Positions 1 through 9,568 of a DNA stretch of 64,000 bases are shown piece by piece. Positions within the stretch are counted from its first letter, which is position 1. The number at the start of each line of letters is the position of its first letter. The notes beneath the pieces are model-generated. The model searched no databases and was not told the origin of the DNA. It was given only the letters and a program-made list of their open reading frames with translations. Made by a program: the position numbers and the translations under genes. Source of the DNA: a virus; the IMG/VR virus record IMGVR_UViG_3300030419_004857, positions 1 to 64,000 of that record; one strand, 5' to 3'.

Positions 1-59
1 ACCGGCCCGCCACGATTCTACGGCTTACAGCCGCGCTCATGCCACCGAGCTACAAGGGC
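1..59 (-). tRNA. tRNA-like sequence, truncated by the window edge
   Basis: Read on the minus strand from 59 there is a 7-nt acceptor-like strand (GCCCTTG), then TA, a perfect D-stem pair GCTC/GAGC with a GG-containing loop, then a strong hairpin CGGC-TGTAA-GCCG, and the beginning of a T-arm-like GCCGGT at the edge. The hairpin contains GTA, which would suggest tRNA-Tyr. However, the anticodon arm is about two nucleotides too short for a canonical 5+7+5 arm, so the isoacceptor is not assigned. The 3' end lies outside the window. It could be a degenerate tRNA or a tRNA-like processed RNA. Confidence 0.4.
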
Positions 60-95
60 TTCACTTGTTTCAATTGTCAAAGATCGTTGTATTAT

Positions 96-149
96 CTCCC
101 CCCGGCAGTAGTCGGCTAGCACCTACTCTTGAGTTGCTGCCGGGGGGAG
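96..149 (-). ncRNA. 13-bp perfect hairpin in the leader of the tRNA-like transcript
   Basis: Positions 96-108 and 137-149 are perfectly complementary over 13 bp (CTCCCCCCGGCAG arm) around a 28-nt loop. The loop has smaller internal complementarities. It lies just downstream of the minus-strand promoter at 166-194 and upstream of the tRNA-like sequence, so it would form in that transcript. No T-run follows, so it is not an obvious terminator. A processing structure or small RNA is possible. Confidence 0.5.
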
Positions 150-165
150 CTTGTGTTGTGCGTGT

Positions 166-194
166 ATTGTACCAGACACGCCTCTGGTTGTCAA
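166..194 (-). promoter_or_regulatory. sigma70-type promoter
   Basis: On the minus strand TTGACA (189-194), a 17-bp spacer and TACAAT (166-171). It would drive the leader hairpin and the tRNA-like sequence. The -35 hexamer contains the TGA stop of the upstream gene. Confidence 0.8.
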
Positions 195-424
195 CCGTTT
201 TTCTTCATTGCGTCGGAATCGACATACTGAACTGGCAACGTTCGGAAGTGAAGCCCGCCCAGTCCGCAAGCCTCAAAGAACCGGTCACGGTCAAACCGGG
301 GATTCTCTCGTTCAAAGTAATCCGCTAGATCACTCGCCATCTCGTGAGAGAACTCACGCCCCACCTTGGGGAGATGCTTCTTGATGATCGCTGCCTGTTC
401 CTCGAATACTTTTCGCGTCAGCAT
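191..424 (-). CDS. small phage protein of unknown function, 77 aa
   Basis: Starts MLTRKVFEEQAAIIKKH and contains LADYFERENPRFDRDRFFEACG. This pattern (hydrophobic-ADYF..-NPRFDR-RF--ACG) I associate with a widespread family of small phage proteins without known function. The start at 424 is chosen because GAGAGGG lies about 8 nt upstream; an in-frame upstream ATG would place the start before the promoter. It is preceded by its own sigma70 promoter (462-490). Its TGA stop is embedded in the -35 box of the next promoter. Confidence 0.75.
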   Translation of the reverse strand: MLTRKVFEEQAAIIKKHLPKVGREFSHEMASDLADYFERENPRFDRDRFFEACGLGGLHFRTLPVQYVDSDAMKKNG

Positions 425-461
425 TGTGTCGCCCTCTCGTGTGTTGTTGTTGTGAGCGTGT

Positions 462-490
462 ATTGTATCACACGTCTCGCCTGTTGTCAA
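462..490 (-). promoter_or_regulatory. sigma70-type promoter
   Basis: TTGACA (485-490), 17-bp spacer, TACAAT (462-467) on the minus strand. It drives the gene 191-424 and overlaps the TGA stop of the gene 487-651. Confidence 0.85.
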
Positions 491-651
491 CCCTGTTTGT
501 GTGGCTGTCCGGTGAATATGTCAAGCCCGTTCTCGGCTCGCCACTGGTACAACCGGATACGCGACTCACGTTTCTCCGGGGTGTCCTTCACTTGCTTCTG
601 TTGTGGGTTACGATAGTCCGCTGTCGCCTTGCACGGAATACTGATATCCAA
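487..651 (-). CDS. small hypothetical protein, 54 aa, TTG start
   Basis: The open frame begins at a TTG with AGAGGG seven bases upstream and reads DISIPCKATADYRNPQQKQ; it ends near GLDIFTGQP. It is rich in Arg, Lys and Gln and may bind nucleic acid, but I do not recognise a family. Its TGA stop (487-489) lies inside the TTGACA of the next promoter, the arrangement seen at several neighbours. Hairpin A (701-744) sits between it and the upstream gene. The start codon is an inference from the Shine-Dalgarno spacing. Confidence 0.55.
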   Translation of the reverse strand: MDISIPCKATADYRNPQQKQVKDTPEKRESRIRLYQWRAENGLDIFTGQPHKQG

Positions 652-700
652 CTGTCTGCCCTCTTTCTAGTTCACTGGCTCACAGGTCGTCCCGTTGTGG

Positions 701-744
701 AGCGGCCTCGTTAGCGTGATACTGTGAACGCTAACGAGGCCGCT
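701..744. repeat. Hairpin family member A
   Basis: 17-bp perfect arms 701-717 and 728-744, loop 718-727, followed on the plus strand by TTGTTTTACC. The flank GTTGTGGAG before the left arm and TACC after the right arm are shared by other members. It is intercistronic on the minus-strand transcript. Confidence 0.85.
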
Positions 745-760
745 TGTTTTACCTCAACCC

Positions 761-952
761 CTACGGGGGTGGGATCATAGCGGGCTTGCACGGTGGCGAA
801 TACCGACCCGCCAACGCTCGGATCAACTCGTCCTCGTCCACCAACATCTGGAAAACGTGGTCGCCAATTGTCACGGCCAAAACCGTAGAGCCAACCGGCC
901 TAGCTTGCGTTGCGTCAAGCGTCTCCACCTTTGCATCATGTATCTGTATCAT
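761..952 (-). CDS. small hypothetical protein, 63 aa
   Basis: Begins MIQIHDAKVETLDATQ. The centre is a compact beta-like stretch (VLAVTIGDHVFQMLVDEDEL), and the C-terminus is proline-rich. A GAGG ribosome site stands about 7 nt before the ATG. The start follows directly after the stop of the 31-aa membrane peptide gene at 956, so the two are co-transcribed. No family recognised. Confidence 0.65.
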   Translation of the reverse strand: MIQIHDAKVETLDATQARPVGSTVLAVTIGDHVFQMLVDEDELIRALAGRYSPPCKPAMIPPP

Positions 953-955
953 CGT

Positions 956-1051
956 CTACCTCGTGCCAATAATAATGAGTGTCCAGTATACCAGAAACGA
1001 CATCGTCAGCCAAGTGTCCCGATCAATCCTTTTCAGTGTCTTCACTTTCAT
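956..1051 (-). CDS. 31-aa single-pass membrane peptide
   Basis: Translation starts MKVKTLKRIDRDTW, basic, followed by a hydrophobic segment (LTMSFLVYWTLIIIG) and ends GTR. This is a short N-in membrane peptide topology. The ATG overlaps the TGA of the upstream gene (ATGA), with GAGGG just upstream, indicating translational coupling. Too short for homology calls. The same region has many other tiny membrane peptides. Confidence 0.6.
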   Translation of the reverse strand: MKVKTLKRIDRDTWLTMSFLVYWTLIIIGTR

Positions 1052-1119
1052 CCCTCTACAATATCCTTTACCAACAAACTAAACAAAGCCGCTGCCACTG
1101 CCCACATCCACCAACTCAT
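1048..1119 (-). CDS. 23-aa membrane peptide
   Basis: Starts MSWWMWAVAAALFSLLVK, almost entirely a hydrophobic helix with aromatic residues at the front and a short charged tail (KDIVEG). It is the first gene after the promoter at 1144-1171 and overlaps the next gene by ATGA. The ribosome site is weak (AGGAC 9 nt upstream), so assignment rests on position, coupling and composition. Confidence 0.5.
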   Translation of the reverse strand: MSWWMWAVAAALFSLLVKDIVEG

Positions 1120-1143
1120 CGCGTCAGTCCTCGATTCGTATGT

Positions 1144-1171
1144 ATTATACCAGATATGCCGCCGATGTCAA
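1144..1171 (-). promoter_or_regulatory. sigma70-type promoter
   Basis: TTGACA (1166-1171), 16-bp spacer, TATAAT (1144-1149), a perfect match to both consensus hexamers. It drives the three-gene run 1119 to 761. The upstream gene's TGA stop is inside the -35 box. Confidence 0.85.
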
Positions 1172-1398
1172 GCCCACCAGATACGCTCACCGGCCAACGC
1201 TCTCGCACCGAGGTGAACCGATTCGGCCCACGCCCACAGCTTCCGATTCTTCTCGGTTGGTACGGCGGATGCCTGAGCCTTGTACTTGTCCATCACGGCT
1301 TTCGCCTTGTCAACGTCGGTCAGCTTGGCACGTTGTGCCCGGTCGATGCCCTTGTTGATTTTCTCTCGTGTGATCTCTGCTGCCATTGTCCAAGTCAT
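1168..1398 (-). CDS. small hypothetical protein, 76 aa, helical
   Basis: Begins MTWTMAAEITREKINKG and is rich in Ala, Lys and Glu (KAKAVMDKYKAQASA), predicted largely alpha-helical. AAAGGG stands 6 nt before the ATG at 1398, supporting this start over the internal Met5. It has its own promoter (1435-1462), and its TGA is inside the -35 of the next promoter. No recognised family. Confidence 0.7.
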   Translation of the reverse strand: MTWTMAAEITREKINKGIDRAQRAKLTDVDKAKAVMDKYKAQASAVPTEKNRKLWAWAESVHLGARALAGERIWWA

Positions 1399-1434
1399 GT
1401 GCGCCCTTTCGTGTGTCGCGTGTTGTATGCCCCC

Positions 1435-1462
1435 ATTATACTATATTATCGTCAAAAGTCAA
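1435..1462 (-). promoter_or_regulatory. sigma70-type promoter
   Basis: TTGACT (1457-1462), 16-bp spacer, TATAAT (1435-1440) on the minus strand, upstream of the 76-aa gene. Confidence 0.8.
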
Positions 1463-1497
1463 GCCCAACCTCCACCCTATCTCCCCTTTTTTCCTAA

Positions 1498-1514
1498 TTG
1501 AGATCCAGTCTCAA
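1498..1514. promoter_or_regulatory. palindromic site TTGAGA-5-TCTCAA
   Basis: TTGAGATCCAGTCTCAA has 6-bp inverted arms around a 5-bp centre. A closely related perfect palindrome, TTGAGACTGAGTCTCAA, occurs at 5168-5184. Both lie in rare gene-free gaps next to hairpin family members, so they may be repressor or regulator operators. Confidence 0.5.
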
Positions 1515-1545
1515 CTCACTGACCCACAGCCTTCCCTCTTCGCAA

Positions 1546-1577
1546 GCCGGGCGGTTGTCGCAAGACAGCCGCCCGGC
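1546..1577. repeat. Hairpin family member P
   Basis: 14-bp stem (1546-1559 with 1564-1577, one G-T pair) closed by a GCAA tetraloop. It is followed on the plus strand by GCGTTCTACC, the shared tail. The upstream flank CTCACTGACCCACAG matches other members. Confidence 0.7.
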
Positions 1578-1579
1578 GC

Positions 1580-1608
1580 GTTCTACCCTATCCCGCCTTC
1601 TATGTCAA
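1580..1608 (-). promoter_or_regulatory. possible weak sigma70 promoter
   Basis: TTGACA (1603-1608), exactly 17 bp, then TAGAAC (1580-1585), a 4/6 match. It overlaps the TGA of gene 1605-1724 and the tail of hairpin P. No gene follows before the next promoter, so function is doubtful. Confidence 0.35.
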
Positions 1609-1724
1609 CCCCAATTTGTCATTATTCCTACGAATGTGATTGTCACCATCGCCGCCGCGAATCCCATTGACAGCATCCACATGAGGATGTATACCCACTC
1701 ACACGCCACACCAAACCACTTCAT
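1605..1724 (-). CDS. 39-aa membrane protein
   Basis: Begins MKWFGVACEWVYILMWML and continues with a long hydrophobic, Met-rich stretch ending TNWG. One or two membrane passes are possible. The ATG overlaps the upstream stop as TAATG, and GGAGG lies 8 nt upstream, so it is coupled to gene 1724-1942. Its TGA stop is inside a TTGACA hexamer. Confidence 0.65.
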   Translation of the reverse strand: MKWFGVACEWVYILMWMLSMGFAAAMVTITFVGIMTNWG

Positions 1725-1942
1725 TAGACTTCCTCCGTTCGGATAGTATAGCAGCCCGCGTCCTCGCCCCGTGGCAGAACTTGATAGGCCACCCCTTCGG
1801 TGGACACCGAGATACTGAACAGCCGATGCCCGTCAGCGTTGTGTACGTCCACGGTCGCCACCCCCAATTCGGGAATGTCTTCCATGCTGAAGAATCCCAT
1901 TCCGCCCTGAGTGTCACAAACGTCCATATGATCAAGTCTCAT
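1724..1942 (-). CDS. hypothetical protein, 72 aa
   Basis: Starts MRLDHMDVCDTQGGMGFF; acidic and beta-rich in the second half (GVATVDVHNADGHRLFSISV). AAGGGG lies 8 nt upstream of the ATG, and the upstream gene stops two bases away. It is the third-from-last gene of the operon that begins at 2440. No family recognised. Confidence 0.7.
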   Translation of the reverse strand: MRLDHMDVCDTQGGMGFFSMEDIPELGVATVDVHNADGHRLFSISVSTEGVAYQVLPRGEDAGCYTIRTEEV

Positions 1943-1943
1943 T

Positions 1944-2189
1944 CTACGTCCCCTTCACTTTCCAGATTTTCACTCTCTTGCCCAACTCACCGTTGAACCC
2001 AACACCGCCACCGGTCAGTTGTGAATAGTCAATTGCCATTCCCACCTTGCCACCATCTGCAAGCCCAAGTTGACCATGCAGGATGGTGATGTACTGGTGT
2101 TTGCGGTGAGCCTTCAACGGCACGATTGCGAAGTCGTGCTTGGCTCCCCTGTCGAACAAGTCGCCTGTCTTCGGTTTGTGTTGCATCAT
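1944..2189 (-). CDS. hypothetical protein, 81 aa
   Basis: Begins MMQHKPKTGDLFDRGAKHDF; basic, with a glycine-rich beta-like middle (LGLADGGKVGMAIDYSQLTG). GGAG precedes the tandem ATGs, so translation may begin at 2189 or 2186. It is followed by gene 1724-1942 with a 1-bp gap. No family recognised. Confidence 0.7.
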   Translation of the reverse strand: MMQHKPKTGDLFDRGAKHDFAIVPLKAHRKHQYITILHGQLGLADGGKVGMAIDYSQLTGGGVGFNGELGKRVKIWKVKGT

Positions 2190-2197
2190 TTTCTCCG

Positions 2198-2440
2198 TCA
2201 GTCACTCACACAGAATCGGGTAGGGGGACGGTAGTTCGGCCCAGCCTCGTGGGCCGCTTGCCGGTCACGGTTGCCCGCGAACCACGCCTTCCACTCGTCC
2301 AGCCAGTGGGGGAAAGTTATACCAGCCCGCTGGTTGTCAACCTGCTCGCAGCGGAAACACTGGTTGCCCGCCACAAAGGACGCACAAGTCAGTCGGCCAC
2401 AAGCACAGTTGTGTGGGCTGGTGTGATTGTTGTTGGTCAT
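2198..2440 (-). CDS. small Cys-rich protein, 80 aa, possible zinc binding
   Basis: The N-terminal half contains four cysteines in CACGRLTC and CFRCE spacing typical of a small zinc-binding knuckle. The rest is rich in Trp, Arg and His (HWLDEWKAWFAGNRDRQ). GAGAGGG lies 7 nt upstream of the ATG at 2440. It has its own promoter at 2474-2503 and leads a four-gene operon to 1605. A DNA- or RNA-binding role is an inference. Confidence 0.7.
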   Translation of the reverse strand: MTNNNHTSPHNCACGRLTCASFVAGNQCFRCEQVDNQRAGITFPHWLDEWKAWFAGNRDRQAAHEAGPNYRPPTRFCVSD

Positions 2441-2473
2441 AGTGTTACCCTCTCGTGTTGTTTGTCAGAACGT

Positions 2474-2503
2474 ATTATAGCAGACGCCCCCGCCCGCCGT
2501 CAA
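2474..2503 (-). promoter_or_regulatory. sigma70-type promoter
   Basis: TTGACG (2498-2503), 18-bp spacer, perfect TATAAT (2474-2479). It starts the operon 2440 to 1605. Confidence 0.75.
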
Positions 2504-2505
2504 CC

Positions 2506-2805
2506 CTACCACCCGCAGTCATCGTACTGCCCGTGGTCCCAGTCGTCCCCACCCATGTAATCCTGCCACTCGGTGTACTCGTCCGGTTGCCCGTCGTCCT
2601 CATAGTAGTCGTCGTCGTCCACGTCCTCCACCACCGGCAACTCGTCCTTGCGGATCTGGAACGTCTCCGGTTCGTCTTTGGCTCCGAACACCGGGAACGG
2701 GTACGCTGGGGGGTACGGTGCGGATTCTTCCCGTGCCCGCTTGTCGGCCTCGATGATCTGGGCCTCGATGTCGGTCACGTTGTCGCGGGTCTCGTCGTGT
2801 CGCAT
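2506..2805 (-). CDS. acidic hypothetical protein, 99 aa
   Basis: Begins MRHDETRDNVTDIEAQIIEAD and ends in a run of Asp, Tyr, Glu and Trp, including EYTEWQDYMGGDDWDH. It is a clear paralogue of the 74-aa protein at 3352-3576: both share the first 20 or so residues and the C-terminal EY.EWQDY.GGD block, while the centre differs. GGAG lies 5 nt upstream of the ATG. The acidic, aromatic tail could mimic DNA, as some phage inhibitors do, but that is speculation. Its leader contains hairpin B. Confidence 0.75.
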   Translation of the reverse strand: MRHDETRDNVTDIEAQIIEADKRAREESAPYPPAYPFPVFGAKDEPETFQIRKDELPVVEDVDDDDYYEDDGQPDEYTEWQDYMGGDDWDHGQYDDCGW

Positions 2806-2850
2806 GGTATCTCCATTTTTCTCACTGGCTCACAAGCAGCACCGTTGTGG

Positions 2851-2894
2851 AGCGGCCTTGTTAGCGTGAGACTGCGAACGCTAACAAGGCCGCT
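2851..2894. repeat. Hairpin family member B
   Basis: 17-bp perfect arms 2851-2867 and 2878-2894, loop 2868-2877, plus-strand tail TTGTTTTACCTGA. It lies in the 5' leader between promoter 2961-2989 and gene 2506-2805. It is the closest relative of member A. Confidence 0.85.
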
Positions 2895-2960
2895 TGTTTT
2901 ACCTGAACATCGCGGCGGGTCGACCCCGGAACTTGGGGAGCTTGTCACCCGTGTGCGTGT

Positions 2961-2989
2961 ATTGTATCCGACCTCGCCCCGGCTGTCAA
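2961..2989 (-). promoter_or_regulatory. sigma70-type promoter
   Basis: TTGACA (2984-2989), 17-bp spacer, TACAAT (2961-2966). It drives gene 2506-2805 with a leader of about 150 nt containing an AAGCTCCCC motif and hairpin B. The upstream gene's TGA is inside its -35. Confidence 0.85.
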
Positions 2990-3093
2990 CCCCTATTGTT
3001 GGTCAGCCGCCAGATAAGTCGGTCCATCAGGTCAGCACAAACGATTCCGCCAAACACGGCGAACACCAGATCGGTAAACCACATGTCGTGCAT
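2986..3093 (-). CDS. 35-aa membrane peptide
   Basis: Begins MHDMWFTDLVFAVFGGIVC, a single hydrophobic segment, with a basic tail (DRLIWRLTNNRG). GGAG lies 7 nt upstream. It follows hairpin C on the transcript. Its TGA lies within the next TTGACA. Part of the tiny membrane peptide set. Confidence 0.6.
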   Translation of the reverse strand: MHDMWFTDLVFAVFGGIVCADLMDRLIWRLTNNRG

Positions 3094-3145
3094 CAGACTA
3101 CTCCATTGCCCTTTTCACACTGACTCACGAGTCGCTCCGTTGTGG

Positions 3146-3181
3146 AGCAGCGTCGTTGACCTAGGACGAAACGACGCTGCT
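3146..3181. repeat. Hairpin family member C
   Basis: 12-bp perfect arms 3146-3157 and 3170-3181. Loop TAGGAC can pair with GTTCTA in the plus-strand tail TTGTTCTACCTGA (six pairs, one G-T). It lies between genes 3214-3285 and 2986-3093. Confidence 0.8.
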
Positions 3182-3213
3182 TGTTCTACCTGAACAGCGC
3201 CGCGTCCCGCCGA

Positions 3214-3285
3214 TCACAGCGTTTCCAGATTTACCAACAACTGGTACACCGCCACTCCCGCCGCTATCACATACATCACGCCCAT
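3214..3285 (-). CDS. 23-aa membrane peptide
   Basis: Starts MGVMYVIAAGVAVYQLLV, nearly all hydrophobic, ending NLETL. GAGGG lies 4 nt before the ATG. It follows the 16-aa peptide gene with a short gap, in the operon starting at promoter 3654-3682. Confidence 0.5.
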   Translation of the reverse strand: MGVMYVIAAGVAVYQLLVNLETL

Positions 3286-3292
3286 ATCGCCC

Positions 3293-3343
3293 TCACTTGT
3301 AAACCGCAATAAACAACAAAGCCGCCGCCGCCACTTGCACCAT
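3293..3343 (-). CDS. 16-aa hydrophobic peptide
   Basis: MVQVAAAALLFIAVYK, a single hydrophobic helix with a terminal Lys. It starts 8 bp after the stop of the 74-aa acidic gene. The ribosome site is weak, so it could be spurious. Support comes from position in the operon and similarity in type to its neighbours. Confidence 0.35.
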   Translation of the reverse strand: MVQVAAAALLFIAVYK

Positions 3344-3351
3344 CGTATCCA

Positions 3352-3576
3352 CTAGTAGCCCTCACCCCACACGGATTCACTGTGATCATAGTACTCGTCA
3401 CCGCCGAAGTAATCTTGCCACTCGTCATACTCCGATGGCTGATGATCATCTTCCTCAATGTCGTCTTCATCGGTCACGACCGCATCGAAGAACCAACCCG
3501 CCGTCTCGCGGTTGTCGGCCTCGATGATGGTATCTTCGGTGTCGGTGATGTTGTCGCGTGTGTCGTCGAATCGCAT
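3352..3576 (-). CDS. acidic hypothetical protein, 74 aa, paralogue of 2506-2805
   Basis: Begins MRFDDTRDNITDTEDTIIEAD; the tail has DDHQPSEYDEWQDYFGGDEY. The N- and C-terminal blocks match the 99-aa protein at 2506-2805, which has a longer middle. GAAAGGG lies 8 nt before the ATG at 3576. Promoter 3654-3682 with the conserved AAGCTCCCC leader precedes it. Function unknown; the strong negative charge is the main visible feature. Confidence 0.75.
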   Translation of the reverse strand: MRFDDTRDNITDTEDTIIEADNRETAGWFFDAVVTDEDDIEEDDHQPSEYDEWQDYFGGDEYYDHSESVWGEGY

Positions 3577-3653
3577 TGTGTCTACCCTTTCAAGGTAAGT
3601 GTGTTGGGTCGGCCCCGTTGAGTGGGGAGCTTGTCACCCGTGTGTATGTAGGT

Positions 3654-3682
3654 ATTGTATCAGGACTGCCAACGAGTGTCAA
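3654..3682 (-). promoter_or_regulatory. sigma70-type promoter
   Basis: TTGACA (3677-3682), 17-bp spacer, TACAAT (3654-3659). It drives the acidic gene 3352-3576 and the two peptide genes after it. It overlaps the 3' end of gene 3660-3878. Confidence 0.85.
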
Positions 3683-3878
3683 CCGTCCGCTTCACGTATC
3701 TCCGTCGCCACACCCCACGGATGTACTGTTCACTTCCACAGTGGAGAATGGTGTTGCTGTAATCACCATGCCGGATGCCGATGTACCAGCTTGTACCCCG
3801 ATGCCACATGGTGATTTCTCTGTCGTTAGCCTTGCACCATGTCATGGTCGGTGCGGTTGTCGCGATCACGGTCTTCAT
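3660..3878 (-). CDS. hypothetical protein, 72 aa
   Basis: Begins MKTVIATTAPTMTWCKANDR and is rich in Trp, His and Arg, ending in a basic segment (RRRYVKRTVDTRWQS). The reading frame runs through the -35 box of promoter 3654-3682 and stops at the TGA just before its -10. The ribosome site is weak (AGAG close to the ATG). Hairpin D is directly upstream. I judge it probably real from composition. Confidence 0.5.
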   Translation of the reverse strand: MKTVIATTAPTMTWCKANDREITMWHRGTSWYIGIRHGDYSNTILHCGSEQYIRGVWRRRYVKRTVDTRWQS

Positions 3879-3909
3879 TTCTCTGACTCACAGGGGGTGT
3901 TGTTGTGGA

Positions 3910-3954
3910 GCAGCGTTGTTAGCGTGAGACGGGCGAACGCTAACAACGCTGCTT
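3910..3954. repeat. Hairpin family member D
   Basis: 17-bp perfect arms 3910-3926 and 3938-3954 with an 11-nt loop. Plus-strand tail TTGTCTTACCCGA; loop GAGAC can pair with GTCTT. It lies between genes 3976-4041 and 3660-3878. Confidence 0.85.
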
Positions 3955-3975
3955 GTCTTACCCGACCTCCGACCG

Positions 3976-4041
3976 CTAGTCGAAGTCGCCAAGCAGCCAA
4001 GCGATGATGATGATAAGTCCGAGGTAACCTGAGAAGCCCAT
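3976..4041 (-). CDS. 21-aa membrane peptide, MGFSGYLGL family
   Basis: Starts MGFSGYLGLIIIIAW and ends LLGDFD. A second copy with the same frame of conserved residues is at 4759-4824, so this is a genuine duplicated gene under protein-level constraint. GGAG lies 6 nt upstream, favouring this ATG over one four codons earlier. It is driven by its own promoter (4073-4101). A single hydrophobic helix with an acidic end. Confidence 0.75.
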   Translation of the reverse strand: MGFSGYLGLIIIIAWLLGDFD

Positions 4042-4072
4042 GTCATTCTCCATGTGTGATGTGTATGCCAGT

Positions 4073-4101
4073 ATATTACCGACTCGCCTCTCCCGTGTCA
4101 A
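4073..4101 (-). promoter_or_regulatory. sigma70-type promoter
   Basis: TTGACA (4096-4101), 17-bp spacer, TAATAT (4073-4078). It drives the 21-aa peptide gene 3976-4041 and, through hairpin D, probably gene 3660-3878. Confidence 0.75.
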
Positions 4102-4153
4102 CCCCCAATTTACTAATTTATAAAATCGCTGGCTCACGCCTCCCCTTCTTGTG

Positions 4154-4190
4154 GAGCCGCGTGGATGTCCTAAGACCATTCACGCGGCTC
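4154..4190. repeat. Hairpin family member E
   Basis: About 12 bp (4154-4165 with 4179-4190). Loop TAAGAC is perfectly complementary to GTCTTA in the plus-strand tail TCGTCTTACCCGA. It lies after gene 4250-4423 and before promoter 4073-4101. Confidence 0.8.
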
Positions 4191-4249
4191 GTCTTACCCG
4201 ATCTCGGAAAAATCCGGTTTTGGGCTTGACTTCCGCGCGGCGGTTGATC

Positions 4250-4423
4250 TCAGCAATGCCGGTGTGTGTCGTGCCAATAGTCGAACCCGCTTGGCCCGTC
4301 GCCGGTCGGTTTCGGCTTGTCGGTTTTCACGCCGCTCGCCTCGTCCGCTTTCCGCTTGGCGACCCGAGCCTTATAGTCGGCCCATCGTTTGCGTCGCCGT
4401 TCCCAGTCTTGTGCGTTTGTCAT
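4250..4423 (-). CDS. small basic protein, 57 aa
   Basis: Begins MTNAQDWERRRKRWADYK; very rich in Lys and Arg in the first half, ending GFDYWHDTHRHC. AAGGG lies 7 nt upstream of the ATG. It follows the endonuclease VII-like gene by 3 bp, as last gene of that operon. A nucleic-acid-binding role is plausible from charge alone. Confidence 0.6.
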   Translation of the reverse strand: MTNAQDWERRRKRWADYKARVAKRKADEASGVKTDKPKPTGDGPSGFDYWHDTHRHC

Positions 4424-4426
4424 TCT

Positions 4427-4759
4427 CTATCCCTTCAAGTAATTGATTGCCCGACGCAGCATGTCGATGCTGTCGCCAAACTTGCCAAGTGCGTTGTTGC
4501 AGTCGTTGCACAACCAGCCCCGAAACTCATCGGTGTCGTGGTCGTGGTCGAGTACGATCTTGCCGCCGCTCCGTTTGCAGATCGGACACGTCGCGTCGGT
4601 CGGTTTCGTATTCTCCCGATGGAGTCTTGCCCGGACTTTCCGTTGGTGTCCCCGGCAATCGTTGCAAGTGTGTTTCCGCAACACGCCGCTTGGCAGTGTG
4701 TTGTTGATCGGAAAGTGGTCGAGTGGTTTCGTCTCGTCACATCGTTTGCAGATCCGCAT
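4427..4759 (-). CDS. recombination endonuclease VII-like HNH nuclease
   Basis: A 110-aa protein with Zn-binding cysteine pairs (C4/C7, C32/C35, C58/C61, C84/C87) and the characteristic LDHDHDTDEFRGWLCNDCN block at 70-88, followed by ALGKFGDS and LRRAINYL. This is the Endonuclease_7 family pattern; DHDH supplies the catalytic and metal-binding residues. Family members cleave branched or nicked DNA, and in T4 gp49 resolves junctions before packaging. The length fits small phage members. The ATG overlaps the upstream peptide stop (TAATG), so translation is coupled. Confidence 0.9.
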   Translation of the reverse strand: MRICKRCDETKPLDHFPINNTLPSGVLRKHTCNDCRGHQRKVRARLHRENTKPTDATCPICKRSGGKIVLDHDHDTDEFRGWLCNDCNNALGKFGDSIDMLRRAINYLKG

Positions 4760-4824
4760 TAGTCGAAGTCTCCCAAGACGAAAGCGAGCACAATCAGCAG
4801 TCCGAGGTAACCTGAGAATCCCAT
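4759..4824 (-). CDS. 21-aa membrane peptide, MGFSGYLGL family
   Basis: Starts MGFSGYLGLLIVLAF and ends VLGDFD, a paralogue of 3976-4041 with conservative changes in the hydrophobic core. GGAG lies upstream at good spacing. It is the first gene of the operon with the endonuclease VII-like protein, whose start overlaps its stop. Confidence 0.75.
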   Translation of the reverse strand: MGFSGYLGLLIVLAFVLGDFD

Positions 4825-4858
4825 TGTCGTTTTCTCCGTTGCGTTGTTGTATCTGTCC

Positions 4859-4886
4859 ATTGTAGCAAACCGCCGCCCGCTGTCAA
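4859..4886 (-). promoter_or_regulatory. sigma70-type promoter
   Basis: TTGACA (4881-4886), 16-bp spacer, TACAAT (4859-4864). It drives the operon 4824 to 4250. Confidence 0.8.
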
Positions 4887-4888
4887 CC

Positions 4889-5014
4889 CTACCGCCGTCG
4901 CGACTTGAACGGGTTGAAGCGGCAGAAGTCTTGCACTGCGATCAGCCCCATCGGAACCACGATCAGTGCGAGTGCGGTCAGTGCGATCAGTGCGTCGATT
5001 GTTGTGGTCGTCAT
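4889..5014 (-). CDS. 41-aa membrane protein
   Basis: Begins MTTTTIDALIALTALALIVV, one hydrophobic segment, then a basic cytoplasmic-type tail (FCRFNPFKSRRR). GGAG lies about 9 nt upstream. It has its own promoter (5048-5075), and TAG is followed within two bases by the next TTGACA. Confidence 0.65.
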   Translation of the reverse strand: MTTTTIDALIALTALALIVVPMGLIAVQDFCRFNPFKSRRR

Positions 5015-5047
5015 TGTGTTGTCTCCGTTGCGTTGTTGTGAGTCTCC

Positions 5048-5075
5048 ATTGTAGTTGATCGGCCACCTACGTCAA
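5048..5075 (-). promoter_or_regulatory. sigma70-type promoter
   Basis: TTGACG (5070-5075), 16-bp spacer, TACAAT (5048-5053), upstream of the 41-aa membrane protein gene. Confidence 0.75.
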
Positions 5076-5167
5076 TCCACTTTAGTCACTTTGGCCCATT
5101 TTTTTCCAGTGCAACTACCGTGCCAAACGGCCCCAGCAAAACCCGTGCCAATCGGAAAATTTCCTTA

Positions 5168-5184
5168 TTGAGACTGAGTCTCAA
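5168..5184. promoter_or_regulatory. perfect 17-bp palindrome
   Basis: TTGAGACTGAGTCTCAA, two 8-bp arms around a central base, related to the site at 1498-1514. It is immediately followed by another dyad at 5187-5203. Operator-like; the regulator is unknown. Confidence 0.55.
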
Positions 5185-5186
5185 CA

Positions 5187-5203
5187 TGTAGCATTATGCT
5201 ACA
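5187..5203. repeat. short dyad S1, TGTAGC-5-GCTACA
   Basis: TGTAGCATTATGCTACA, 6-bp arms with a 5-nt centre. Related dyads recur at about 6079, 6240, 6408, 6572, 6771, 6966 and 7182, one per repeat unit. Confidence 0.65.
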
Positions 5204-5213
5204 CTTCGCCTTC

Positions 5214-5251
5214 AAGCTGCATGGGTGTGGAAAGACACACCCATGCAGCTT
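5214..5251. repeat. Hairpin family member F
   Basis: 16-bp perfect arms 5214-5229 and 5236-5251, loop GAAAGA. Plus-strand tail TGTCTTACCCGA; AAGAC at the loop edge can pair with GTCTT. Confidence 0.85.
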
Positions 5252-5311
5252 GTCTTACCCGACCCCCTAGAGGGCCGGGCTTGCCCAGCTTACCAAGCTT
5301 ACCCAGCTTGC

Positions 5312-5383
5312 CTACCAGTCCGCGTTCCCCAAAAGCCCCTCATATACCACAGCTACCAAAGCCACCAGAAACAGCGTATTCAT
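5312..5383 (-). CDS. 23-aa membrane peptide, MNTLFLV family
   Basis: Starts MNTLFLVALVAVVYEGLLG and ends NADW. It has a paralogue at 5515-5577 with the same opening residues and the same upstream AGGGA ribosome site. The two gene-plus-hairpin units are diverged tandem copies. A single membrane helix. Confidence 0.6.
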   Translation of the reverse strand: MNTLFLVALVAVVYEGLLGNADW

Positions 5384-5426
5384 GCCAATTTCCCTATCTT
5401 ACCTAGCTTCACACACTCCGCCGTTC

Positions 5427-5462
5427 ATCGGCGTCGTTGGGCTACAACGAAACGACGCCGAT
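5427..5462. repeat. Hairpin family member G
   Basis: 12-bp perfect arms 5427-5438 and 5451-5462, 12-nt loop. Plus-strand tail AGTCTTACCCGA; loop GGG(C)TA can pair with TACCC with one bulge. Confidence 0.8.
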
Positions 5463-5514
5463 AGTCTTACCCGACCCCCCATTGGGCCGGGCTTACCCAT
5501 CTTGCCAAGTCTGC

Positions 5515-5577
5515 CTATCCCCCCAAAAGCCCCTCGTAGATGATAGCTGCCAGAGCGACCAGAAATAGCGTATTCAT
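5515..5577 (-). CDS. 20-aa membrane peptide, MNTLFLV family
   Basis: MNTLFLVALAAIIYEGLLGG. Paralogue of 5312-5383; the two differ by conservative hydrophobic swaps, suggesting selection on the peptide. AGGGAG lies about 7 nt upstream. It lies between hairpins H and G. Confidence 0.6.
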   Translation of the reverse strand: MNTLFLVALAAIIYEGLLGG

Positions 5578-5620
5578 ACCAAACTCCCTATCTTGCCTAG
5601 CTTCCGTCACGTCGCCGTCA

Positions 5621-5656
5621 ATCAGCGTCGTTGAGGTGAAACGAAACGACGCTGAT
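5621..5656. repeat. Hairpin family member H
   Basis: 12-bp perfect arms 5621-5632 and 5645-5656. Loop GAGGT is complementary to ACCTC in the tail CGTCCTACCTCA, a tail variant that changes together with the loop. Confidence 0.8.
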
Positions 5657-5740
5657 CGTCCTACCTCATCCCGCCCTGCACGGTGGGCCGACCCCGGAGC
5701 TTGGGGAGCTTTCGCCCTTGTGTGCTGTGAGCGCCTCGCC

Positions 5741-5791
5741 TCATCCGTCGATGATGATGGCGATGATCGCGATGATCAGAAACCAATTCAT
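5741..5791 (-). CDS. 16-aa hydrophobic peptide
   Basis: MNWFLIIAIIAIIIDG, a single helix. AGGGAG lies about 6 nt upstream, and a strong sigma70 promoter (5825-5853) directly precedes it with no other gene between. The promoter and ribosome site argue it is expressed despite its size. Confidence 0.55.
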   Translation of the reverse strand: MNWFLIIAIIAIIIDG

Positions 5792-5824
5792 GTTGTTCTC
5801 CCTAGTGCGTTGTTGTGTACGGGT

Positions 5825-5853
5825 ATTGTATACCAACACCCCACCACTGTCAA
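5825..5853 (-). promoter_or_regulatory. sigma70-type promoter
   Basis: TTGACA (5848-5853), 17-bp spacer, TACAAT (5825-5830). It drives the 16-aa peptide and probably the duplicated 20- and 23-aa peptides downstream. Confidence 0.85.
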
Positions 5854-5855
5854 CC

Positions 5856-5957
5856 CTACTTGCGCCACGAGTGTGCCCGTGCATCCTGAATACCGAGGAT
5901 GATGATGGGCAGGACGATGGCGGTCAGCATGGCGGCGGTGATGAGTGTGTTGGTCAT
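5856..5957 (-). CDS. 33-aa membrane peptide
   Basis: Begins MTNTLITAAMLTAIVLPIII, one hydrophobic segment, with a polar basic tail (RAHSWRK). GGAG lies 9 nt upstream. It ends with TAG two bases before the TTGACA of promoter 5825-5853. No promoter of its own is evident, and the sequence upstream is the non-coding array. Confidence 0.55.
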   Translation of the reverse strand: MTNTLITAAMLTAIVLPIIILGIQDARAHSWRK

Positions 5958-5986
5958 GGCCTGTGGCTCCGGTTATGTCGTCGTTG

Positions 5987-6022
5987 ATCAGGGTCGTTGA
6001 GGTGGCACGAAACGACCCTGAT
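5987..6022. repeat. Hairpin family member I
   Basis: 12-bp perfect arms 5987-5998 and 6011-6022. Loop AGGTGG can pair with TTACCT in the tail TTGTATTACCTGA, including two G-T pairs. Confidence 0.8.
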
Positions 6023-6150
6023 TGTATTACCTGAAAGCGTTGTTCGAATTTTCAAGCATTAGATTATGGGATTTCTAAAGTGTAGCATAATGCAACAGTT
6101 AAAAGTTCGCCGGTTTCTTGGTCTCCGAACACTCGATCCGCCGCACTTTA

Positions 6151-6185
6151 ACGTGGCTAGCTTGAATAAGACAAGATAGCCACGT
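6151..6185. repeat. Hairpin family member J
   Basis: 14-bp arms 6151-6164 and 6172-6185 with one mismatch, loop AATAAGA, tail CGTCCTACCTA. Five of six positions between loop TAAGAC and tail GTCCTA can pair. Confidence 0.75.
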
Positions 6186-6309
6186 CGTCCTACCTAATGC
6201 TGTTCGAGTTTTGAAGCCTTAGATTGTGGCATCTCTAAAGTGTTGCATTATGCAACAGTAAAAGTTGGCCAGTTTCAAGGTTTCGCAACGCTCGATCCGC
6301 CGCTCTTTA

Positions 6310-6344
6310 ACGTGGGTGAGTTGAGTAGGACAACTCACCCACGT
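6310..6344. repeat. Hairpin family member K
   Basis: 14-bp perfect arms 6310-6323 and 6331-6344, loop AGTAGGA. Loop-edge GTAGGAC is perfectly complementary over 7 nt to GTCCTAC (6346-6352) in the tail, the clearest pseudoknot candidate. Confidence 0.85.
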
Positions 6345-6477
6345 CGTCCTACCTGAAAGTGCCCCGATTCGTATGCTTGAAGCCCTTCAATCCGGGCAAC
6401 TCTAAAGTGTAGCGAAATGATACACAAAAAGTTCCCCTAGTTCAAGCGCTCTCAACCCTCGATCCGCCGCACCTCAA

Positions 6478-6510
6478 CGCGGGTGGATTGTAAAAGACAA
6501 TACACCCGCG
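6478..6510. repeat. Hairpin family member L
   Basis: 14-bp arms 6478-6491 and 6497-6510 with one mismatch. Loop AAAAG with following AC can pair AAGAC to GTCTT in the tail CGTCTTACCC. Confidence 0.75.
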
Positions 6511-6643
6511 TCGTCTTACCCAAAAGTTCCCCCGATTCAAACGCTTCAAGCCCTTCAATCTGGGCATGTTGAAAGTGTAGCATTATGCTACAAAAAAAGT
6601 TCCCTAGTTTCTTGGTCTCGCAACCCTTGATCCGCCGCACTTC

Positions 6644-6678
6644 ATGAGGCTAGGTTGAGTAGGACAACCTAGCCTCAT
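6644..6678. repeat. Hairpin family member M
   Basis: 14-bp perfect arms 6644-6657 and 6665-6678, loop AGTAGGA. GTAGGAC pairs with GTTCTAC in the tail over 7 positions with one G-T. Confidence 0.85.
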
Positions 6679-6837
6679 CGTTCTACCTAAACAGGTGCTT
6701 CAAACCTCGAACAATGCTATATACGGGCAAACACGACGCGACGTAACTCGTTGCTATTGCTGGACTTAGAGTGTAGCAAAAAGCCACACGCTAACTAACT
6801 TGTAAAAGATCGCACATGCTCATTTATCGCCGCCTTT

Positions 6838-6874
6838 GATGTGGCTAGGTTGAATAGGACAACCTAGCCACATC
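6838..6874. repeat. Hairpin family member N
   Basis: 15-bp perfect arms 6838-6852 and 6860-6874, loop AATAGGA. The tail here is CGGATCACCCGA, and the loop-tail complementarity is lost. Confidence 0.8.
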
Positions 6875-7033
6875 GGATCACCCGATCTAATGTTCCAAAC
6901 CTCGCACAACGCTATATACAGCCAAACGCGCCGCGCCCTAAGTCGTTGGTATCACTAGGCTTAGGGTGTAGCAAAAAGCCACACACTATCTAAGGCTTCA
7001 AACCTCGCACATGCTCACTTACGCCCATCTTCG

Positions 7034-7068
7034 ACTTGGATAGATTGAAGAGGACAATCTATCCAAGT
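7034..7068. repeat. Hairpin family member O
   Basis: 14-bp perfect arms 7034-7047 and 7055-7068, loop AAGAGGA, tail TGGCTTACCTGA. The loop does not match the tail well. It is the last member before the HNH genes. Confidence 0.8.
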
Positions 7069-7116
7069 TGGCTTACCTGAAAGGCTCAAAACCTCGCACA
7101 TCACTATATACGCCTA

Positions 7117-7199
7117 ACTGTCATAATGGCAGACATATGCTATATTGGCACTGTCATACTGGCACACTGCCACCCTGACATGTGTAGCATTATGCACCA
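7117..7199. repeat. short direct repeats plus a last S1 dyad
   Basis: CTGTCATAATGGCA near 7118 and CTGTCATACTGGCA near 7151 are near-identical repeats about 33 bp apart. They are followed at 7182-7199 by GTGTAGCATTATGCACCA, a partial S1 dyad. No gene is visible from 7110 to 7369. The repeats could be iterons or operators. Confidence 0.4.
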
Positions 7200-7280
7200 C
7201 TGGCTCGGGCAATTGGCGCAAAAGGCACTTTAGGTAGTCTAGGTAAGGTGGGGTTTTCTGTTTGGATAGGTAAAAAGGGT

Positions 7281-7369: not shown

Positions 7370-7825
7370 TCATTCACCCAGCGCCCGCTTGTTCCCCTTT
7401 TTCTTCATCGCCGTTTCAGGATCAATCCCCTTATTCAACCTATTATAAAATGCCGCGTAGCTAACTTCGCACCTTTCATCCTCCACCCACTCGCCCACAT
7501 TCTTTTCTTCCCCAAAAGCCTCAATTTTCACATTAGACTTCATGTTATTGGCGTTCTCTTTCGGAGTCACCTCCCGCAAATTGGCCCTAGTGTTGTTCAG
7601 CCTGTCATTATCTAAGTGATCTACAAAGATATACGGACTACTAGTGCCCGCAACCATCCTATGCATCGACTTATGCCTTCCCCCAATTTTTGTAATGGCA
7701 TAGCCCTGCTTATTGATATGCCAGCTATACCTGCTCAGCCATGCATAATCTTCCGGGCTAACTTTTACATACTGCCCTGCCCCCGTCACGCCCCCCAAGG
7801 GGATCTCAAAATATAGATCACTCAT
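7370..7825 (-). CDS. HNH homing endonuclease-like protein, 151 aa
   Basis: N-terminal beta-rich region (EIPLGGVTGAGQYVKVSPED.AWLSRYSW) typical of phage HNH proteins with an AP2-like or NUMOD-type fold. The HNH core follows: H55 in MHR, D69-H70 and the N-rich segment DNDRLNNTRANLR. The C-terminal part (DERCEVSYAAFYNRLNKG) resembles a small helical DNA-binding module. Such genes are usually selfish mobile elements that cut homologous alleles. It overlaps the preceding gene by 8 bp. Confidence 0.85.
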   Translation of the reverse strand: MSDLYFEIPLGGVTGAGQYVKVSPEDYAWLSRYSWHINKQGYAITKIGGRHKSMHRMVAGTSSPYIFVDHLDNDRLNNTRANLREVTPKENANNMKSNVKIEAFGEEKNVGEWVEDERCEVSYAAFYNRLNKGIDPETAMKKKGNKRALGE

Positions 7826-8123: not shown

Positions 8124-8297
8124 ATGAAAAGAATTCAAGCAGAATTAGCTATGCGTGCCAGTGCTGAGTTGGAAAAGGAGATTGAAGAAGAGCTTCAGAA
8201 GGAAGATCCCGATCCAAAACAGGCTAAGGCAATATTAAAAGCTGATGAAAATTCCAAAAGGGATGACCGAAGACCAAGTGATCGAGACAATAAATAA
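8124..8297 (+). CDS. small charged protein, 57 aa
   Basis: Begins MKRIQAELAMRASAELEKEI and is nearly all Lys, Glu, Asp and Arg, likely one long helix. It is the first frame after the promoter at 8061-8074 and overlaps the sigma-like gene by 53 bp. The ribosome site is weak (TAGG). It could be a real small gene or a leader; no family recognised. Confidence 0.45.
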   Translation: MKRIQAELAMRASAELEKEIEEELQKEDPDPKQAKAILKADENSKRDDRRPSDRDNK

Positions 8298-8787
8298 AGT
8301 TATATCAAGATATATTTATAAATTTCGATTTGGTTATTACGAGTCAGAAGATATCAGACAAGAAGCTTTCATTATCGCAATGGAGGCTCTTGAAAGGTAT
8401 GACGAAGAGCGTCCGTTAGAAAATTTTCTGGCTGTCCATGTAAAAAACCGTTTAAGCAACTTTAAACGCGACAAATTCTTTCGTAAAGAAGGGGATTCTA
8501 CCAAAACCGACTGGAATTCCCCTAACAATGCTAAGAGGTTTCTTATGGAACCGCTAAATATTGACAATATCAGGGATGAGTACGAAGAGAATATGAAAGA
8601 TCCAGACGATTTTATTGATCGTATAGCCAATACAGAGATATTCGGCTTGATCGACAAGAGTCTGGACATCAAATACAGGGCAGACTATCTGAGAATGCTT
8701 GACGGAGTCTACGTCCCCAAGCCCCGTAGAGAACAAATCTACCAAGAGATACTCTCCATTTTAAGGAGCACCAATGAAGAAGGGTAG
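8245..8787 (+). CDS. phage sigma-like factor, 180 aa
   Basis: Residues about 20-80 match sigma70 region 2: SEDIRQEAFIIAMEALERYD, then ERPLENFLAVHVKNRLSNFKRD, the part that binds the core polymerase clamp and the -10 element. The C-terminal segment (YLRMLDGVYVPKPRREQIYQEIL) may be a reduced region 4 helix-turn-helix. Length is close to T4 gp55 (185 aa), the late sigma factor. It is likely to direct polymerase to the GTGTATAAT motifs here, which lack regular -35 boxes. An alternative start is Met at 8263. Confidence 0.8.
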   Translation: MKIPKGMTEDQVIETINKVISRYIYKFRFGYYESEDIRQEAFIIAMEALERYDEERPLENFLAVHVKNRLSNFKRDKFFRKEGDSTKTDWNSPNNAKRFLMEPLNIDNIRDEYEENMKDPDDFIDRIANTEIFGLIDKSLDIKYRADYLRMLDGVYVPKPRREQIYQEILSILRSTNEEG

Positions 8788-9568
8788 ATTTTCAAAAACA
8801 GAGATCTCTTTCATTACAGAGAATCACGAAACTTTAAGCTATCAAGAAATAGCTTTAAAATTGAATCGTGATGCTTACAGCGTAGAGAACTTTATCAAGA
8901 GTAAGCTTGGTGAATCGATAGAAGATAAGAAAAGAATCCAAGCGCTCTATGATTTAAAAAACCGTCCCTACTGGGAAGACCTCAAAGGCCAGTTCAACGA
9001 ACACGAACTTGAGATGCTTTTATACCATTGGGGTCGCATCATAGGCCAATTCAGAGACGACGTTCTACCAACTGAAGAACTTCAGGTCTTAGACGCCATC
9101 AAACTAGAAGTCCTCATGAATCGCGCTCTAAAAAATCAACAAACGAACATGGAAGACATCGATACATACGAAGAGCAGATTACAGAAGAGAAGGGTAGAC
9201 CAATTGAATACCAAGACAGAGACTACATATTCAATCTTGAAAGACAAATAGCTGTAGCCAGAGCAGCCCAAGAAGCTCTAGGACGTGATTACAAAGACCT
9301 ACAAGTCAAAAAATCCGCCATGCTTAAAGATCTCAAGGCTACCAGAGAACAGAGAATCAAACGGCTGGAAGATTCCAAGCAGACATTCATATCTTGGGTT
9401 TCAAACTTAATGACCAACCCTGATATTAGACAAGAGATAGGAACAGAAATGGAAAAGATGCGTCTATCCATTAACAAAGAAAAAGAAAGACTATCTGAAT
9501 GGCATCAATACGAAGATAAGCTCGTAGATCAACCTTTCCTAACCCCGGACACTGTCAAGGATGAGTAA
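8774..9568 (+). CDS. helix-turn-helix plus coiled-coil protein, 264 aa
   Basis: Residues 5-45 (GRFSKTEISFITENHETLSYQEIALKLNR) form a Myb/SANT-like helix-turn-helix common in phage DNA-binding proteins. Residues about 150-250 are a long charged coiled coil. This layout could suit a small terminase subunit, since none is otherwise seen upstream of the large subunit, or a late-transcription cofactor next to the sigma gene. It overlaps the sigma gene by 14 bp, so the two are coupled. Which role applies cannot be settled from sequence alone. Confidence 0.55.
   Translation: MKKGRFSKTEISFITENHETLSYQEIALKLNRDAYSVENFIKSKLGESIEDKKRIQALYDLKNRPYWEDLKGQFNEHELEMLLYHWGRIIGQFRDDVLPTEELQVLDAIKLEVLMNRALKNQQTNMEDIDTYEEQITEEKGRPIEYQDRDYIFNLERQIAVARAAQEALGRDYKDLQVKKSAMLKDLKATREQRIKRLEDSKQTFISWVSNLMTNPDIRQEIGTEMEKMRLSINKEKERLSEWHQYEDKLVDQPFLTPDTVKDE

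Follow-up and report, generated by a model that had tools for sequence, protein, structure and literature searches.

A family of structured elements in the early region of an uncultured phage lineage

The 64,000-nucleotide stretch of viral DNA analyzed here (the window; positions 1 to 64,000 of IMG/VR record IMGVR_UViG_3300030419_004857) forms the left end of a virus contig of 161,265 bp and carries 16 hairpins that belong to a genuine, previously unlisted family of structured elements from an uncultured phage lineage. The family comprises 64 such elements, hereafter units, in nine contigs; their stems covary, all 64 of 64 lie on the strand of the neighboring genes, they occupy junctions between cistrons or transcripts among dozens of small early genes, and the flank 3' of the stem is depleted in T. 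The 16 stems were proposed in a first-pass annotation of the window, and all are present within 1 nt of where it had placed them, with the claimed 12 to 17 paired positions per stem; 12 of the 16 are perfect, and those at 1546, 4154, 6151 and 6477 contain one mismatch or wobble pair. Dinucleotide shuffles of bases 1 to 7200 yield such hairpins at a mean of 0.04 and a maximum of 1, and just one further example lies within 7201 to 64000. The annotation had also described a GTYYTACC-type tail following each hairpin on the plus strand; GTNYTACC indeed follows 14 of the 16, but the tails at 6838 (GGATCACC) and 7034 (GGCTTACC) deviate. The sense direction of the units is that of the minus strand, where this sequence reads GGTARRAC and is a 5' tag, not a 3' tail.

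Thirty-three units served to build a covariance model, with which the contig and its relatives were searched; three of the relatives were reached via the DUF932 protein of the contig's right end and five more via the DNA pattern of one loop class (class A, see below). On the 161-kb contig the model recovers 21 units, namely, the original 16 and five at the right end, with none between the two groups; the eight relatives, all marine phage contigs, which together with the contig of the window form the nine-contig set, hold another 43. Viral relatives found with the protein encoded at 8774 to 9568 as the query had no units, and one blastn query against 50,697 phage records likewise found none. 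Among 84,980 genomes, the class A pattern detected no genuine bacterial or archaeal unit, only a mis-binned phage contig (PBOB01000075.1), and a scan for the tag combined with the 3' box returned 11 loci (L068 to L078), 0 of which matched the covariance model.

The terminase of the phage shares at most ~32% identity with known terminases, and no close DNA relative, cultured phages included, was found among the 50,697 phage records. PBOB01000075.1, a 7.8-kb contig binned with a metagenome-assembled genome (MAG) from the Red Sea, matches the window at 7751 of 7760 positions from 2.8 kb onward, and the phage is therefore probably of marine origin. This contig, assigned to an "Acidiferrobacteraceae" MAG, is a 99.9% identical piece of the window phage and probably represents contamination of the genome bin. 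The hairpin region at the left end has a GC content of ~53% and small minus-strand genes, as against ~40% GC for the remaining contig; the right end holds a second GC-rich region of the same small-gene type.

Anatomy of the units

On the gene strand, a unit spans ~50 to 95 bases and consists of the tag YR-GGTARRAC, a spacer of 0 to 5 nt, a stem of 12 to 18 bp, and a purine-rich, T-poor flank, with GTGARCYAG in some members. The tag takes the form GGTAAGAC in 26 units, GGTAAAAC in 14, GGTAGGAC in 9, and other forms in the remaining 15. The base of the stem tends toward AGC-N-GC / GC-N-GCT, often with a G-G mismatch, and one of its G-C pairs is nearly invariant (66 of 67). Two loop classes can be distinguished: class A, with the loop TTCRCn(n)GTMTC on a stem of 17 to 18 bp, and class B, whose loop contains GTCYT on a stem of 13 to 16 bp; some units are intermediate between the two. 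Near-identical unit alleles are repeated at several sites within one phage or across phages. The units of the window, together with the 3' flank of unit 3, are as follows.

697 to 755, minus strand: unit 1, class A; GGTAAAAC followed by a 17-bp hairpin
1541 to 1589, minus strand: unit 2, class B; GGTAGAAC followed by a 14-bp hairpin
2797 to 2846, minus strand: 3' flank of unit 3, with the GTGAGCCAG box (9 of 9) within a purine-rich stretch
2847 to 2905, minus strand: unit 3, class A; compared with the paralogous leader at 3509 to 3684, an insertion of ~82 nt in a sigma70-driven leader
3142 to 3192, minus strand: unit 4, short-stem relative of class A
3905 to 3964, minus strand: unit 5, class A; 11 nt past the stop codon of a tiny gene encoding a membrane peptide
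4151 to 4200, minus strand: unit 6, class B
5211 to 5261, minus strand: unit 7, class B
5423 to 5473, minus strand: unit 8, intercistronic within the 5853-5211 operon
5617 to 5667, minus strand: unit 9, intercistronic within the 5853-5211 operon
5983 to 6033, minus strand: unit 10
6147 to 6196, minus strand: unit 11, class B, tandem array
6306 to 6355, minus strand: unit 12, class B, tandem array
6473 to 6522, minus strand: unit 13, class B, tandem array
6640 to 6689, minus strand: unit 14, class B, tandem array
6835 to 6884, minus strand: unit 15, class B, tandem array; degenerate tag GGTGATCC
7030 to 7079, minus strand: unit 16, class B, tandem array; degenerate tag GGTAAGCC

The GTGAGCCAG box is also found in units 1, 4, 5 and 6 at 8 to 9 of its 9 positions; across the family, 17 of the 64 units match GTGARCYAG in at least 8 of its 9 letters, versus 1.6 expected from shuffled flanks. 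At positions 2 to 11 following the stem on the gene strand, T accounts for just 25 of 530 bases (4.7%, versus a background of 20.6%) and purines for 77%. This composition is the reverse of that expected of an intrinsic (Rho-independent) terminator and bears out the first-pass statement that the hairpins, which lack a T-run after the stem, are not ordinary terminators.

Compensatory drift of the stems

The compensatory nature of the arms, likewise claimed from the outset, stands well above both shuffled and slid controls. The covariation score is 0.380 for the 33 units, as against 0.107 after shuffling, and 0.533 for 67 model matches, as against 0.138 after shuffling and no more than 0.13 when the partners are slid; shuffle counts do not equal probabilities for related sequences, and the slid-partner control preserves relatedness. 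Orthologous units preceding the same gene illustrate the process, with GTTGTCG/CGACAAC in L180 at 9490 versus GTTATCG/CGATAAC in L176 at 753. Throughout the family, the middle of the stem is variable but compensated, and the base and the loop are kept.

Placement at gene and transcript junctions

Many units start 2 to 15 nt past a stop codon. Canonical terminators near them mostly precede the tag by 10 to 75 bp, and strict sigma70 promoters are clustered 97 to 150 bp downstream of it (~110 bp). Several placements in the window involve the following minus-strand features.

2961 to 2989, minus strand: sigma70 promoter; unit 2847 lies in its leader
5515 to 5577, minus strand: MNTLFLVALAAIIYEGLLGG, a tiny gene for a membrane peptide, flanked by units 5617 and 5423
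5741 to 5791, minus strand: MNWFLIIAIIAIIIDG, likewise a tiny gene for a membrane peptide and the first cistron in the 5853-5211 operon
5825 to 5853, minus strand: sigma70 promoter TTGACA-17-TACAAT, driving a three-cistron operon with units 5617, 5423 and 5211

Unit 2847 belongs to a leader and follows the -35 element of a sigma70 promoter, which matches at 11 of 12 positions, by 86 bp. Units 5617 and 5423 separate the three tiny cistrons served by the single promoter at 5853, with no further promoter-like site matching at 8 or more of 12 positions until 5184. In the relative L173, the units at 2979, 3828 and 4886 are each preceded by a gene or tRNA and followed by the ribosome-binding site of the gene downstream; at 3828, it is tRNA genes that precede the unit. 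Altogether, ~16 units are directly followed by a gene without a promoter of its own. From the leader position of unit 2847 and the intercistronic positions of 5617, 5423 and L173 3828, we infer that the units are junction elements, at least some of which lie inside transcripts and are read through. Thus, the original description of the hairpins as lying between cotranscribed minus-strand genes holds for some of them (e.g., 5617 and 5423) but not for the roughly one-third that are followed by their own sigma70 promoter.

A possible role in the processing or insulation of early mRNAs

Action at the RNA level is favored by the uniform orientation, by the scarcity of T in the flank and by the positions between cistrons. 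We tentatively propose, giving this explanation somewhat less than even chances, that the units are sense-strand RNA hairpins through which mRNA is processed, protected or insulated at cistron and transcript junctions. Also in its favor are the covariation of the stems, the start of many units shortly after a stop codon, and unit 2847, which lies in a leader and is absent as a block of ~82 nt from two paralogous leaders. Of the roles listed in the first-pass annotation, RNA processing or a regulatory RNA remains the front-running reading. In such a scenario, a single family of RNA elements would be deployed in the early, GC-rich gene region of this lineage. Each would comprise a 5' YRGGUARRAC tag and an adjacent 12- to 18-bp stem with a kept base and loop and a freely drifting middle, followed by a purine-rich, U-poor 3' flank with GUGARCYAG in part of the family. 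The units would form part of early mRNAs where cistrons or transcripts meet, with read-through rather than termination, and the hairpins might then act in processing, protection or insulation upon being recognized through the tag, the stem base and the loop. RNA rather than DNA would be the active form, and a binding factor would probably be involved.

The following points weigh against this proposal. First, roughly one unit in three has a terminator or the end of a gene upstream and a sigma70 promoter downstream, a setting in which only read-through would transcribe it. Second, the genes of the region run one way in each contig, and the 64 agreements in orientation are therefore not independent. 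Third, mismatches in the stems do not identify the strand: the raw excess of G-T over A-C on the gene strand (25 versus 8) falls to 10 versus 6 (P = 0.45) once related units are collapsed, and because a significant G-U bias is lacking, these mismatches do not demonstrate folding as RNA.

A more elaborate version, which we regard as unlikely, is that a single factor, from the phage or its host, recognizes the GGUARRAC tag, the stem base and the loop at ~21 early-gene junctions, making up a phage-wide posttranscriptional system that processes or protects early mRNAs; the gene-free tandem array at 5.98 to 7.08 kb could then be the matching source of a small RNA or a decoy. With 64 units, two loop classes, compensatory stems and one pair of leaders with and without a unit, natural variation permits a precise statement of the structure. 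If the units do act as RNA, they would exemplify a phage in which most early transcripts are served by a single structured RNA element.

Alternative explanations

The units could instead work as DNA, with GGTARRAC and the GTC of the loop read by a phage sigma factor in the manner of -35 and -10 elements and the inverted repeat aiding the melting of the -10 region. Proteins with sigma70 region 2 are encoded in nine of the nine contigs, and in seven the gene lies within a few kilobases of the hairpin region, facing opposite to the units; the presence of such genes beside the array keeps this explanation alive. The spacing of 12 to 16 nt between tag and GTC in class B, the location of terminators just upstream and of genes downstream of the units, and the stem mismatches without RNA bias would all suit a promoter. 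However, the corresponding distance in class A is ~23 to 25 nt, the early genes have sigma70 promoters of their own, and 0 hairpin-less GGTARRAC-N-GTC sites precede other genes between 8 and 153 kb. The structural genes are preceded instead by another promoter-like motif, GGTGTATAAT, which could account for the sigma factors. The absence of hairpin-less sites and the separate motif of the structural genes led us to set the phage sigma promoter aside, and we consider a DNA-level hairpin or promoter improbable overall. The GGTGTATAAT motif, a candidate late promoter, occurs at G000 18324, 23872, 32390, 38984 and 68679, and the window phage encodes three proteins with sigma70 region 2 (window 8245 to 8787; G000 83759 to 83962 and 114882 to 115040). 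TTGACA upstream of the tag was also considered as a -35 element; 20 of 64 units have it, but the spacing varies among 5, 8, 9, 13, 15 and 17 nt, and the copy before unit 1541 overlaps a stop codon. A hairpin promoter of the N4 virion RNA polymerase type would call for a phage-encoded single-subunit RNA polymerase; no PF00940 match was found, though the control was likewise unmatched.

It is similarly doubtful that the units are linkers for recombination that shuffles early modules, as proposed for the promoter early stem-loops (PeSLs) discussed below, or mini-elements like REPs that are moved in trans. Near-identical alleles do turn up repeatedly, within one phage or across several, and both upstream and downstream neighbors have been exchanged around the units at L180 8077, L179 11711 and L174 8777. 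Further, a comparison with and without a unit is available: the gene at 2506 to 2805 has a unit in its leader, and its paralogue at 3352 to 3576 and its L178 homologue lack ~82 nt. All three leaders share the promoter-proximal part (GGGTGACAAGCTCCCC...GGGG.CGACCC) and the gene start, and in this one comparison the missing block extends from near the tag to near the end of the GTGAGCCAGTGAG box, which fits the module ends suggested by the alignment. Ends of homology coincide with units about twice as often as after circular shifts (43 versus 20), but this enrichment vanishes when unit-bearing gaps are compared with other intergenic gaps (3.7 versus 4.1 ends per kb). Neither a Y1 transposase nor a tyrosine recombinase was found in the nine contigs, leaving REP or integron relationships without the expected transposase or integrase, and the class A pattern was not found as a repeat in any bacterial genome. 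Finally, uniform orientation and compensated drift, as opposed to identity of copies, point to a selected structure.

Less probable still is an unusual terminator, either factor dependent or acting on a phage-modified polymerase, that ends early transcripts. A start 2 to 15 nt past the stop codon in many units, a new sigma70-driven transcript ~110 bp later, and the small number of other terminators in the window would be in keeping with this. Yet the units have no U-tract and a T-depleted flank, canonical terminators are already present upstream of units in the relatives, and ~16 units lie directly before a gene without its own promoter.

The loop-tail pseudoknot proposed in the first-pass annotation is the part of its interpretation that fails, unlike the conserved structure, the nonterminator character and the position between minus-strand genes. 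Five units (4154, 5213, 6147, 6306 and 6473) have a perfect or near-perfect loop-tail complement, but only that at 6306 has a perfect 7-bp one, and it is not maintained across the family. The complementarity of a tail to its own loop equals that to permuted loops, both in this phage (P = 0.21 for Watson-Crick pairs and 0.35 with G-U) and across all units (57; P = 0.48 and 0.47), and the two parts do not change together beyond chance. Against letter-shuffled loops, a weak excess is seen in this phage alone (P = 0.018 for Watson-Crick pairs and 0.065 with G-U), with zero excess in the relatives (P = 0.90); pairing of the loop or tag with the 3' flank shows no excess either. Moreover, with the tail fixed 0 to 5 nt from the base of a 12- to 18-bp stem, geometry makes contact with the loop hardly possible as long as the hairpin is intact. 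An H-type pseudoknot is thus refuted as a family-wide feature, and a pseudoknot RNA of this type is scarcely credible.

Comparison with known elements

Dispersed intergenic repeats, including PeSLs and SAS/ESAS, are common in phage early regions. The family described here is akin in setting to PeSLs and ESAS yet fails defining features of each, and it matches none of the known families tested. PeSLs have been described from T4-type phages (Arbiol 2010 and Comeau 2014, cited in PMC4503421) and, going by a title cited there, are composite promoter-terminator motifs. Like these, the units are numerous stem-loops between the genes of a large phage, in an early region that is shuffling and rich in ORFans, and lie close to early promoters of the sigma70 type and to the junctions of gene modules. 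They differ from PeSLs, so far as that citation characterizes them, in having a conserved tag and loop but no U-tract and in being separate from terminator and promoter; with terminators mostly 10 to 75 bp upstream and promoters 97 to 150 bp downstream of the tag, they do not form a composite cassette.

SAS and ESAS are found in cluster K mycobacteriophages and Microbacterium phages of cluster EF, and their function is unknown according to the papers describing them (PMC3203893, PMC7302621). The cluster K ESAS are 17-bp imperfect inverted repeats, mostly with a 4- to 13-bp spacer, that lie upstream of start codons; their arms have a conserved consensus and usually accompany the SAS ribosome-binding-site motif (GGGATAGGAGCCC) (PMC3203893, PMC7302621). 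The resemblance lies in the dispersal of some ten or more copies among nonstructural genes. In contrast to ESAS, the arms of the units drift with compensation, the tag is outside the stem, and the position is often after stop codons or terminators; no SAS-like constant box at start codons was seen in the flanks examined.

REP elements with RAYT transposases have a short conserved 5' tag beside an imperfect palindrome and are intergenic and multicopy. The units share this architecture, with a short 5' tag, an imperfect palindrome and many intergenic copies, but differ in their single orientation, the lack of a Y1 transposase in cis, and the lack of repetition in bacterial genomes. Integron attC sites combine paired R boxes (RYYYAAC / GTTRRRY) with an integrase; the tag of the units has no complement 3' of the stem. 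As for Rfam, the only match at gathering level in the window and L009 is a tRNA, with no unit among the matches. Unit 4151 reaches 25.5 bits (E = 0.0067) against the gyrA RNA (RF01740), below the 45-bit gathering score, and this match is not repeated in any other unit or relative.

Other features of the region

Three subthreshold matches to the manA RNA (RF01745), each slightly upstream of a unit, were noted at L009 14674 to 14871 (minus; E = 3e-3), L178 8832 to 9010 (plus; E = 6e-9) and L173 1462 to 1662 (minus; E = 3e-4); they probably represent divergent manA RNAs of these phages. The window, L178 and L173 all contain many tiny genes (16 to 39 amino acids) that code for single-span hydrophobic peptides and are often the last gene before a unit, those of the window including 5741 to 5791, 5515 to 5577 and 3976 to 4041.

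Two palindromes accompany the hairpins. The 17-bp TGTAGCATTATGCTACA is present in 8 copies with at most 4 mismatches (5187, 6081, 6241, 6408, 6576, 6772, 6967 and 7183), approximately one per hairpin of the right half, in the gene-poor tandem array, and looks like a repressor operator. The second, TTGAGA-N4-6-TCTCAA, lies near some units of the window (1498 and 5168) and of L178 and other relatives and is possibly also an operator. An endonuclease VII-like protein is encoded inside the early region (4427 to 4759) and an HNH_3 endonuclease at the edge of the hairpin array (7370 to 7825). The phage further encodes tRNAs and a tmRNA with the tag AEKQYALAA (L008 14153 to 14536).

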